Shown piece after piece: positions 3,265 through 6,833 of a stretch of 64,000 nucleotides of DNA. The stretch is taken from assembly GCF_003597675.1 (NCBI RefSeq), contig NZ_CP030827.1:496001-560000 (forward strand), given 5' to 3'. The position numbers and the translations under genes are program-made. Below the pieces are notes generated by a model. It was not told where the DNA came from and did not search any database. It was given only the letters and a program-made list of their open reading frames with translations. The DNA is from Neorhizobium sp. NCHU2750. Its GTDB lineage: Bacteria; Pseudomonadota; Alphaproteobacteria; Rhizobiales; Rhizobiaceae. The first letter of the stretch is position 1, and each line of letters opens with the position of its first letter.

Positions 3265-3873
3265 TCAAAGCCTTTTGATCATTTCGCGGATCGTCGCGTC
3301 GGGCGCGCCGAGCATCAGCACGTTGCGCATCGCCTCATGCGGGTCGTTGGTCTGGAACAACAGCCCGTTCTTGCGCCAGCTGCGGTCGATCTTGGCCTGT
3401 TCGCCGGCCTCGCCCTCGACAGCGACGGCGAAATACATCCGCGCGTTCTGCGGACTGATGCGGGCAAAAAAGGCTTCGTCCTCGCCGATCTCCGAGGAGA
3501 AATTGGCGATGTAGAACGACCATGTGACCATGGAATCGCGCGAGAAGAAGGTGCGCGCCGCCGTTACATGGCAATAGCCGAGATGCGGGCTGCCATCGAG
3601 CGTGCGGTGGAAGATGATCTTCGGAAGAAAGATCGAGCGGTGAAAGCTGTTGAGCCGACGGTGCGTCGTCTCGCCTGCTGCCTCGAGCTTCTTGCCGGTC
3701 TTTTCGGCAACTTCCTCATAGGTCAGATAGCGGCGTTCGCTTGGAACCCACATCGGCCGGATGCGGGAAATGCGGCCCGTCCGCAGAAACTCCGAATGGG
3801 AAGTCGCGGTATTCGGCGCGGTGACGAAAGGCCTCTGTCTGTTGACCTCGTAATACCGGATCGGTGCTGGCAT
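3265..3873 (-). CDS. Conserved hypothetical protein
   Basis: I do not recognise this 202-residue soluble protein. It has no signal peptide or membrane segment and is rich in aromatic residues (for example MVTWSFYIANFSSEIGEDEA). It has no cysteine cluster or nucleotide-binding motif that I can see. Codon use matches its neighbours, and it heads the operon with tsaC, the FAD-linked oxidase and the ModE-type regulator, so it is very probably real. Confidence 0.75.
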   Translation of the reverse strand: MPAPIRYYEVNRQRPFVTAPNTATSHSEFLRTGRISRIRPMWVPSERRYLTYEEVAEKTGKKLEAAGETTHRRLNSFHRSIFLPKIIFHRTLDGSPHLGYCHVTAARTFFSRDSMVTWSFYIANFSSEIGEDEAFFARISPQNARMYFAVAVEGEAGEQAKIDRSWRKNGLLFQTNDPHEAMRNVLMLGAPDATIREMIKRL

Positions 3874-4082
3874 CTTGGCGGCTCTTCCGATTGGATTTTG
3901 ACGAATACTATTAGCGACACCTTAACAGTCTGTTTCTGACCGTGCCGGCATGCCACGGCCCGCCCCGGACAATCCTGGGGAACGCTTTCTGCCAAAGCCT
4001 GTTCCGTCGTCGCCAATGCAGTTGCCGATGTCGCAATGTCGTCTATGCGACAGGCCGGCGTCACGCTTAAATATGACAAAGC

Positions 4083-4300
4083 TCAAGGTGCCGCCTTGCT
4101 AGGGAAGGTGGAGAATTGGGAAGCCGGCGGGTCGACGAGATCTATCCGGCGCTGCCCCCGCAACGGTGGTGGAGTTGAAGGCATGGCGTGAGGGAAACCC
4201 TTAAAGCCACTGGGACAGAGCCGAACGGCCGACCGGGAAGGTGCCATGCAATCCCTCTTGAAGGGAAACTCCTCAGCCCGGAAACCAGCCTGAGCCATGA
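4083..4300 (+). promoter_or_regulatory. Cobalamin (B12) riboswitch
   Basis: The plus strand carries the hallmark blocks of the adenosylcobalamin riboswitch in order and at usual spacing. These are an AGGGAAGGTGGAGAATTGGG 5' block (about 4099-4118), the B12-box GCTGCCCCCGCAAC (about 4151-4164), GCCACTGGGA (about 4206), CCGGGAAGG (about 4234), and the closing CAGCCCGGAAACCAGCC (about 4275). The next gene on this strand is the Rieske oxygenase, 106 bases downstream. B12 binding normally represses expression. The 4301-4405 leader holds a small CGACCGGTCG palindrome but no obvious terminator. From 3874 to 4082 I see no gene and no clear promoter. Confidence 0.92.
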
Positions 4301-4405
4301 TTGACGACCGGTCGCGGAGGGCGCACGGGACAGGAATTGGTTGCGTTTCAAAAATGCCGCCGGCTTGTCCATGCCCTGAAGCTTGCTTGAATTGCGAGGA
4401 AGCAT

Positions 4406-5650
4406 ATGGACATTCATAGTCAGGTTCTGCGACAGCTGAAGAACCGCCGCGAGGGTTTCAGCCTCGAACAGCCCTTCTACATCGACCCCGACTACTACAA
4501 GCTCGATCTGGAAATGATCTGGTATCGCGACTGGCTGTTCGTCGGCCACGATTGCGAGATCGACAAGGCGGGCAAGTATGTCACCCTGCAGATCGGTGAC
4601 TATCCGGTCCTCGTCATCCGCACCCGCGAAGGCGATATCCGCGCCTATCACAACACCTGTCGCCATCGCGGCCACCGCGTCTGCACCAAGGATGCCGGTT
4701 CCGCCACCCGTCTCGTCTGTCCCTATCACCAATGGACCTACCAGCATGACGGATCGCTGATGTCGGCCCGCCACATGGGCGAGAATTTCGACAAGAAGCA
4801 GTATGGCCTGAAACCCGTCCATTGCCAGGTCGTGGGCGGCTACATCTTCGTTTGCCTTGCCCAGGAAGCCCCTGATTTCGCCCCGGTGCGGGCCACGATC
4901 GAGCCCTACATGGCGCCGCATCGCCTGATGGAGACGAAGGTCGCCGCCAAGAACACCATCATCGAGAAGGGCAACTGGAAGCTCGTCTGGGAAAACAACC
5001 GCGAGTGCTATCACTGCGCCGGCAATCACCCGGAACTCTGCCGCACCTATCCGGAAGCCCCGACCGCGACCGGTGTCCAGGGTGCCGGCGATGACCCCTT
5101 CATCTCCGAGCACTGGAGTCGCTGCGAACAGGCAGGCCTGCCGAGCACGTTCAACATGTCGCCGGACGGCCAGTTCCGCGTCGCCCGCATGCCGCTCGTC
5201 GAGGATGCCGAGAGCTACACGATGGACGGCCGACCCGCGGTCAAGCGCTCGCTCTCCGACGATGTGAAGATCTCGCATATCGGCACGATGCTGCTCTTCC
5301 ATTACCCAACCACCTGGAACCACATGCTGGTCGACCACGCGATCTCCTTCCGCGTCATCCCGATCGGCCCGGAAGAGACTGCGGTCACCACCACCTGGCT
5401 GGTTCACAAGGATGCCGTCGAAGGTGTCGACTACGATGTCGAGCAGCTCACCCATGTCTGGAACATGACCAACGACCAGGACCGCGCGATCGTCGAGGAA
5501 AATGCCTTCGGCATCCGTTCGCCGGCCTATGAGCCTGGTCCCTATTCCGAGGCGCATGAAGGCGGCGTCATGCAGTTCGTCGAATGGTATTCGAACTTCA
5601 TGATCGATCGCCTGCAGGGCAAGGACAGCACGCTTTACGCGGTGGCGTGA
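4406..5650 (+). CDS. Rieske non-haem iron oxygenase, glycine-betaine monooxygenase type
   Basis: The 414-residue alpha-subunit-type oxygenase has the Rieske [2Fe-2S] ligands C85-x-H87 and C105-x2-H108 in an N-terminal domain. It is followed by a catalytic domain whose ENNRECYHCAGNHPEL stretch supplies the mononuclear iron histidines (H203, H208). Overall it resembles GbcA, which N-demethylates glycine betaine to dimethylglycine, and related stachydrine or carnitine enzymes. These normally need a ferredoxin-type reductase (GbcB), but no reductase gene lies next to it. It sits alone behind a cobalamin riboswitch, so expression is probably highest when B12 is scarce. Substrate is inferred, not proven. 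Confidence 0.88.
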   Translation: MDIHSQVLRQLKNRREGFSLEQPFYIDPDYYKLDLEMIWYRDWLFVGHDCEIDKAGKYVTLQIGDYPVLVIRTREGDIRAYHNTCRHRGHRVCTKDAGSATRLVCPYHQWTYQHDGSLMSARHMGENFDKKQYGLKPVHCQVVGGYIFVCLAQEAPDFAPVRATIEPYMAPHRLMETKVAAKNTIIEKGNWKLVWENNRECYHCAGNHPELCRTYPEAPTATGVQGAGDDPFISEHWSRCEQAGLPSTFNMSPDGQFRVARMPLVEDAESYTMDGRPAVKRSLSDDVKISHIGTMLLFHYPTTWNHMLVDHAISFRVIPIGPEETAVTTTWLVHKDAVEGVDYDVEQLTHVWNMTNDQDRAIVEENAFGIRSPAYEPGPYSEAHEGGVMQFVEWYSNFMIDRLQGKDSTLYAVA

Positions 5651-5734: not shown

Positions 5735-6172
5735 ATGACCGCATTGCGCATGCGTCTCGCGACGGCTTTTACGGCTGTTGCCGTTCTTGCCACCAGTTTC
5801 GTTCCGGTTTTCGCCGCCCCGATGCGGCTTGACCTGGCTTCTCCGCCGGCGACGTCCGACGTGACCAAGGTTCAGTACCATGGCCATCACGGGCCGCCGC
5901 GGCACTATCGCGGTCACGATCGCCGCGGCTATTACAACGGCCATCGCGGTTACAGCTACCATCGTCCGGGCTACCGTTATCACAATGGTTACTGGTTCCC
6001 GCTGGCAGCCTTCGGTGCCGGTGCGATCATCGGCGGCGCCATTGCCAGCCAGCCGCGCGCCCATAGCAGCAACCACTATCAGTGGTGCGCCAGCCGCTAT
6101 CGCACCTATCGCGCCTCCGATAACACCTATGTTTCAAGCCCGGGTGTACGCCGCACCTGCGTTTCTCCGTGA
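5735..6172 (+). CDS. BA14K-family exported protein, copy 1
   Basis: The 145-residue protein has a signal peptide ([20 protein letters not shown]..., cleavage near VFAAP), a His/Tyr/Gly/Arg-rich middle, and a hydrophobic Gly-zipper-like segment [15 protein letters not shown]. It ends in the BA14K signature of paired aromatic and cysteine residues ([16 protein letters not shown]...RRTCVSP). BA14K proteins are lectin-like, immunoreactive surface or periplasmic proteins of Rhizobiales with unclear function. A GAGGAAACATTCCC leader precedes the ATG and a hairpin terminator follows. The next gene is a close paralogue. Confidence 0.85.
5999..6046 (+). repeat. 48-bp near-identical repeat shared by the two BA14K genes, copy 1
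   Basis: This segment encodes [16 protein letters not shown]. It differs from 6618-6665 at only three of 48 bases, while flanking coding sequence is much more diverged. Confidence 0.85.
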
Positions 6173-6199
6173 AGGTAACGCCGGTTTGATTGAGAGATG

Positions 6200-6228
6200 G
6201 CCCGCTCGCCCTGTCGAGCGGGCTTTCT
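6200..6228 (+). terminator. Rho-independent terminator after BA14K copy 1
   Basis: GCCCGCTCG at 6200-6208 pairs perfectly with CGAGCGGGC at 6215-6223 across a six-base loop and is followed by TTTCTCGTT. It lies 27 bases after the stop of the first BA14K gene, so the two paralogues are probably transcribed separately. Confidence 0.75.
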
Positions 6229-6353
6229 CGTTCCCATGTTAATGAGCGGTTCAGGATGAAAATCCTAGCGTGCTGGGGTAACGGATCACTATCTTCAGGG
6301 TTGGATGTGCAACAGATGTGCACCACCCGCCAACAGAGGAATGGAGAGACAAA

Positions 6354-6833
6354 ATGACTCTGTTCAGGAAACTGGCCGTCGCTGCGGTGTCGGCGTTGGT
6401 GCTTGCCGGTTCGATCGGATCGGCCGAGGCACTGCCGCTGCCTGCCGCACCGTCCGCACCCTTGGCTTCCGACGTCACCAACGTCCAGTATTATCGTCAT
6501 GGTCCGCCGCGCGGCGGCTATTATGGCGGCGGCCCGCGCCGCGGCTGGTATGGCGGTTATCGGGGCTATCCCGGCTATCGCCATGGTTATCGCCGCTATA
6601 GCGATGGCTACTGGTATCCGCTGGCAGCTTTCGGTGCCGGTGCGATCATCGGGGGAGCCATTGCCGCGCCGCGTTACGTCGAGCCGGCCCCGGCACCCAT
6701 CTATCACGGTGCCGGCCTCAATCCGCGTCACTACGAATGGTGCTCGTCCCGCTATCGGTCCTACGATTCCTATTCGAACACGTTCCAGCCGTTTAACGGC
6801 CCGCGCCAGACCTGCTATTCTCCCTATTTCTGA
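6354..6833 (+). CDS. BA14K-family exported protein, copy 2
   Basis: This 159-residue paralogue has the same layout: signal peptide ([20 protein letters not shown]), the motif SDVTNVQYY, a Gly/Tyr/Arg-rich repetitive segment ([19 protein letters not shown]), the [15 protein letters not shown] core and a BA14K terminus with [19 protein letters not shown] and CYSPYF. I chose the ATG at 6354 because GGAGAGA precedes it and it places the signal peptide at the N-terminus; the upstream in-frame ATG at 6318 would bury it. A strong terminator follows. Confidence 0.87.
6618..6665 (+). repeat. 48-bp near-identical repeat shared by the two BA14K genes, copy 2
   Basis: Partner of the segment at 5999-6046 (three differences in 48 bases), coding for the same hydrophobic Gly/Ala core. 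Confidence 0.85.

Follow-up and report, generated by a model that had tools for sequence, protein, structure and literature searches.

The locus examined here raises the question of why a cobalamin (B12) riboswitch should stand directly before the gene of a Rieske oxygenase, and what such an enzyme would do under its control. It lies in a window of 64,000 nucleotides (the whole stretch of DNA analysed) from Neorhizobium sp. NCHU2750 and contains four features of interest:

4068-4307, plus strand: cobalamin riboswitch aptamer (RF00174), full-model match of 74.5 bits
4308-4328, plus strand: P13-like hairpin 3' of the aptamer, belonging to the expression platform; the window stem has two unpaired positions
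4381-4403, plus strand: predicted hairpin that would hide the ribosome-binding site
4406-5650, plus strand: gene of a Rieske non-haem iron oxygenase, by family matches and motif of group Vb type and related to GbcA and Stc2

The RF00174 match extends from the first to the last model position (E 1.6e-16; gathering score 31.5) and is the sole Rfam match at gathering threshold in the whole 64 kb window. The conserved core GCTGCCCCCGCAAC is found at 4151-4164, together with the GCCACTGG box and the 3' segment AGCCCGGAAACCAGCC, so that membership of RF00174 rests on a score above gathering as well as on the core and the 3' segment. The riboswitch ends 98 bases before the oxygenase gene. The earlier note had placed a B12 riboswitch on the plus strand from position 4083, which falls inside the match, and had proposed a search with the Rfam cobalamin models and a comparison of orthologue leaders, both of which bear it out. 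The occurrence of the element is beyond chance, because it is found at the matching place in 85 of the 120 orthologues sampled, the window copy being one of them, and in 47 of 79 usable loci from named genomes; the aptamer core is kept in 79 of the 85. The sample consisted of 297 genomes drawn evenly from the Rhizobiaceae, and the 120 with an orthologue of at least 63% identity were analysed, leaving out an interrupted copy at 59% identity (G245).

Four RF00174 copies are present in the window genome. The other three precede the gene of a periplasmic binding protein, bluB and a DUF1636 gene; such neighbours are usual for B12 riboswitches, and it is the copy at the Rieske gene that stands out. 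A DUF6656 gene is located on the opposite strand upstream (3265-3873, minus strand). The next plus-strand gene after the oxygenase is BA14K-like and starts at 5735, the first of two small Gly/His-rich genes in the interval 5735-6833.

The open reading frame at 4406-5650 encodes a Rieske oxygenase alpha subunit of 414 amino acids (PF00355, 67 bits; PF00848, 118 bits). The residues C85, H87, C105 and H108, which we take to be the Rieske ligands, are invariant in an alignment of 13 sequences and show the Cys-X-His and Cys-X2-His pattern. The motif WENNRECYHC, found in 197 of 200 orthologous translations and replaced by WKLTWENNRECYHC in the other three, contains an Asn two residues before the bridging Glu as well as a Cys-X-X-Cys. 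According to passages in PMC7948474 and PMC10952381, Asn with Cys-X-X-Cys marks group Vb, the glycine betaine and stachydrine demethylases, whereas Tyr or Phe marks group Va. To judge from these marks, the window enzyme is a quaternary-ammonium (group Vb) Rieske oxygenase. A distant Rieske paralogue (31%) on contig C2 of the same genome has Tyr at the group Va position (VENYVECYHC) and adjoins a GcvT/sarcosine-dehydrogenase-like gene.

The top NCBIfam match of the window oxygenase is GbcA (NF058607), but its 506.6 bits are below the curated cut-off of 670, and the protein is therefore not filed as GbcA. The description in the earlier note of a GbcA-like Rieske oxygenase as the only gene downstream thus holds for the Rieske class, for GbcA as the closest family model and for a sole gene directly downstream; identity with GbcA was rejected on the missed cut-off and on the lack of a reductase gene beside the window oxygenase. 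Among solved structures, 3n0q (545 bits) and Stc2 (3vca and 4qup, 528 bits) come closest. Separate Rhizobiaceae copies exist at 53-56% identity, of which eight were fetched as an outgroup; the one tested (L221) scores 805 bits to Stc2, and the window protein, with 528 bits to 3vca, is therefore not the Stc2 orthologue. The riboswitch was found before none of these eight Stc2-like copies, nor before two more distant ones, the only two fetched of those at 42-48% identity.

Neighbourhood clustering identified a GbcB-like reductase gene directly 3' of the Rieske gene in 112 of the 120 sampled genomes, including 82 of 85 with the riboswitch and 30 of 35 without. The best NCBIfam match of this reductase is GbcB (NF058606), with 365.8 bits under a cut-off of 500. 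The eight genomes that have no adjacent GbcB-like gene include the window genome, G140, G047, the g30 genomes and G008. A search of the whole window genome for the GbcB-like reductase gave no close relative (best match 30% over part of the protein, E 1.2e-8), and the window oxygenase would therefore need another electron donor. Other genes are also met near the locus in relatives. In G033, G035 and G131 the Rieske gene and metE are at most 1.7 kb apart, and a second RF00174 element directly follows the Rieske locus in G176, where it precedes a BtuB-like receptor gene. Second cobalamin riboswitches just 3' of the Rieske gene were seen in the loci L149 (5769-5975, plus strand; before a gene for a BtuB-like TonB receptor) and L152 (1243-1450, minus strand).

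A B12-dependent counterpart is encoded elsewhere in the window genome. The MtgBCDE system, described in 2025, carries out cobalamin-dependent demethylation of glycine betaine with methionine synthesis in aerobic bacteria and has been placed in Sinorhizobium meliloti too, according to passages in PMC12478193. In the window genome an mtg cluster (L120) contains MtgC beside an MTTB-family MtgB, a DUF1638 gene, a pterin-binding methyltransferase (MtgD-like) and a RACo-type corrinoid activator. The cluster also holds a regulator with its best match to GbdR (356 of 480 bits). MtgC reaches 209.5 of the 370 bits set for the glycine betaine model, and the Mtg assignments are family matches, several of them under curated cut-offs. 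Two PF06253 genes occur in this genome, one of which adjoins mtgC in the cluster with the GbdR-like regulator, whereas MetH lies apart from the mtg cluster. The B12-dependent partner that an isozyme relationship calls for is thus found in the same genome, as the MtgB, MtgC and MtgD-like cluster. By family resemblance only, the Rieske oxygenase and the Mtg system would perform the same reaction.

The riboswitch tracks MtgC closely across the Rhizobiaceae. The prediction that the element is kept with MtgC and lost without it was set before most leaders had been collected, about a third having already been viewed with a crude motif. Element and MtgC occur together in 81 of the 120 genomes and are both lacking in 33; four genomes have the element only and two have MtgC only (Fisher p 1e-22, with kinship ignored). 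The riboswitch is therefore present in 81 of 83 genomes with MtgC and absent from 33 of 37 without. The 85 positive calls were made by the Rfam model (16), by a weak model trained solely on four riboswitches found before other genes (63) or by the exact 14-base core alone (6). The weak model failed to detect 13 of the 85, among them the window copy, and gave no match in 45 loci that have no element; all 35 element-less leaders were scanned with the Rfam models. The MtgC states were entered into the tally by hand, with the count of 215 checked. PF06253 was detected in 218 of the 297 genomes, and on reading the list none of the 37 MtgC-less genomes was among them; at most four candidates were scored per genome, and single-copy genomes were entered by hand.

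Shared descent was taken into account on the Rieske gene tree, on which the element needs 10 changes and MtgC nine. Six independent pairs could be formed on well supported branches; element and MtgC changed in concert in an average of 5.7 of them and in opposition in none (median p 0.031), a result that is only just significant and rests on the gene tree. Contrasts are found inside two genera. In g1, G204 lacks both element and MtgC, whereas the window genome (G000), G047 and G140 have both; in g107, G237 has both, whereas G107 and G289 have neither. Among named genomes, MtgC was found in all 18 tested that have the element and was missing from 28 of the 32 that do not. The named set contains 80 loci, one of which (L077) has no upstream sequence; the 50 tested were all 32 without the element and 18 of the 47 with it, and at least two genomes are shared with the sample. 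One named locus (L059), in a record titled Arenimonas sp. MAG, is Rhizobiaceae-like with 79% identity and is probably mis-binned.

Several controls concern the specificity of this link. All 37 MtgC-less genomes carry an RF00174 copy elsewhere and keep a MetH match, which rules out the element as a marker of general B12 use. MetE does not track the element, being present in 15 of 85 genomes with it and in 8 of 35 without (p 0.61), and was likewise ruled out as an explanation. In the eight MetE-bearing genomes without the element, an RF00174 match, one of them below the gathering score, stands directly before metE. Since RF00174 is kept at metE in these eight, with MetH present, the element has been lost at the Rieske gene only. 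MtgC-less genomes with RF00174 before each metE are G119, G170, G189, G222, G230, G276, G284 and G294.

The exceptions follow a pattern of their own. The four genomes with the element only belong to a single genus, g94 (G094, G169, G229 and G283). Their cores read GCTGCGCCCGCAAC, the GCCACTG is missing and the matches score 56-61 bits, which looks like decay. All four also have a MetH that is split or interrupted near model position 315, one of them showing two separate matches, which could reflect either decay or a naturally split MetH. In G061, MtgC is accompanied by a damaged aptamer core (68.8 bits), which speaks against the rule. The two genomes with MtgC and no element (G102 and G174, of one genus) have no MetH match, and four named genomes (L044, L048, L057 and L062) also have MtgC and no element. 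Remnants in which the aptamer core is deleted and the 5' part and P13 hairpin are kept were found in L040 and L067, both without MtgC, and in L044, which has MtgC. A strict recount with mutated cores scored as absent gave 80 and 37 concordant genomes and three discordant ones, and was made after the exceptions were known. Because of the g94 genomes, G061, the G102/G174 genus, the named exceptions and the remnants, the order of events is MtgC loss followed by element loss, with element loss also able to occur alone.

The leader sequence offers clues to how the switch might act. The hairpin at 4308-4328, which we take to be P13, keeps its pairing through sequence changes: 483 of 536 pair cells are standard in 67 distinct leaders, compared with 27-51% for slid partners, the leaders having been chosen by a loop motif that 79 of the 85 had. 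In predicted folds, the ribosome site has a mean unpaired probability of 0.20 in the 85 leaders with the element against 0.31 in shuffled sequences, and of 0.50 against 0.43 in the 35 leaders without it, kinship being ignored in both comparisons. An alternative helix between an arm of P13 and the stretch before the ribosome site, which would free that site and complete a two-state switch, was neat in one large leader group (ACCACCAGTTCAGTCC) but overall did not exceed shuffles (mean z -0.47; z < -2 in 5%), and is therefore left out of the claim. The ACCACCAGTTCAGTCC stretch is kept in that group (e.g., L142, L149 and L209) about 20 bases 5' of the start codon. The leaders may fit a translational OFF switch like that of other B12 riboswitches, and the folds are suggestive only on this point.

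The Rieske oxygenase is probably a riboswitch-controlled B12-independent isozyme, such that cobalamin represses an O2-dependent betaine demethylase in genomes that also encode a cobalamin-dependent one. At high cobalamin, the ligand would bind the leader and the ribosome site of the Rieske gene would stay hidden, and the MtgB/MtgC/MtgD-type system encoded elsewhere in the genome would demethylate betaine, most likely glycine betaine. Under cobalamin scarcity, the leader would open and the Rieske oxygenase would demethylate betaine with O2 and release formaldehyde, presumably together with the GbcB-like reductase encoded next door in most relatives. The nrdAB and nrdJ genes are a B12 riboswitch-controlled isozyme pair. 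We lean towards the broader proposal of a third such pair beside metE/metH and nrdAB/nrdJ, in which betaine methyl groups would pass to folate and methionine via MtgBCD in the presence of cobalamin and be burnt to formaldehyde with O2 via a GbcAB-like enzyme in its absence, the element decaying repeatedly once the B12-dependent partner is lost.

The same switch logic could apply to another substrate, with the Rieske enzyme replacing a different MttB-family methyltransferase that feeds MtgC, e.g., for proline betaine or an N-methyl compound. The window protein is about as near to Stc2 as to the GbcA model, and several PF06253 genes occur in many relatives, as do two in the window genome. However, only one PF06253 match is seen in ten element-bearing genomes, the PF06253 gene beside mtgC clusters with a GbdR-like regulator and therefore points to glycine betaine, and the Stc2-like copies exist separately with no element before the eight fetched; a different substrate is accordingly rather unlikely. 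A more distant reading makes the link with MtgC secondary: the enzyme would step in for a failing B12-dependent MetH by providing methionine precursors or one-carbon units. This is the purpose of B12 riboswitches on metE, a gene close to the Rieske gene in the three genomes named above, and the rule-breakers are odd in methionine synthesis, as the missing MetH matches of G102 and G174 and the interrupted MetH of g94 show. This reading is improbable, as MetH matches persist in all 37 MtgC-less genomes although 33 of these have no element and four a mutated one, and MetE does not follow it. The earlier note had suggested a route that needs no B12 for demethylating betaine or a different N-methyl compound when cobalamin is scarce, which the comparison favours, since the counterpart MtgBC is present and tracks the riboswitch; its further suggestion that the route feeds one-carbon or methionine metabolism gained no particular support, given that riboswitch-less genomes keep MetH and MetE does not track the element.

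The element and MtgC could also both be ancestral and have been lost together through lineage history or general B12 loss, with no functional link. Whole genera share their state, and only about six independent contrasts are well supported, but this is very improbable in view of the other RF00174 copies and MetH retained in every MtgC-less genome and of the contrasts inside g1 and g107. That the oxygenase serves cobalamin synthesis or acts on a tetrapyrrole, as products of other B12 riboswitch-controlled genes do, is hardly credible: bluB is among the genes behind the other RF00174 copies of the window genome and the second element of G176 precedes a receptor gene of BtuB type, whereas the group Vb active-site motif and the GbcB-like reductase beside the oxygenase in most sampled genomes point elsewhere, and such a role gives no reason to track MtgC.

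If the isozyme relationship is true, a betaine-degrading enzyme joins the B12 regulon of rhizobia and their kin, and the presence of two unrelated ways of betaine demethylation in some of these bacteria is explained. The genomes would then also testify to the importance of the Mtg system for bacteria living in soil or in association with plants, and osmolyte turnover at roots would be linked to the supply of B12. Because the element has been lost repeatedly in genomes without MtgC, evolution itself offers a test of the isozyme rule for B12 riboswitches. Among open-licence papers, no link of a B12 riboswitch to a Rieske betaine demethylase was found, and none to MtgBC or to an isozyme reading; the bare pairing of a B12 riboswitch with such a gene is already in databases.

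Four known systems may be compared with the locus. The GbcAB glycine betaine monooxygenase of Pseudomonas and Chromohalobacter is the best NCBIfam match for both the oxygenase and the adjacent reductase of its relatives, but both scores are under the curated cut-offs and the window has no reductase gene. The stachydrine demethylase Stc2 of Sinorhizobium meliloti shares the fold family and the motif, whereas the eight separate family copies without the element are much closer to it, as the score of the tested copy indicates. The S. meliloti gene smc00982 is among those with an Rfam-predicted B12 riboswitch upstream (PMC2245857; the same element is tabled in PMC2573895), and SMc00982 is a likely dioxygenase (PMC2848018); it is likened to the window gene by these published descriptions, and the relevant passages of those papers give no function or Mtg link for it. 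In the metE/metH system, the B12 riboswitch stands before the gene of the B12-independent enzyme, and the B12-dependent one is encoded in the same genome, according to passages in PMC3766115 and PMC2211319. With RF00174 before the oxygenase gene, the window genome shows the same arrangement, but a Rieske oxygenase takes the place of MetE, and the Mtg betaine methyltransferase system that of MetH.
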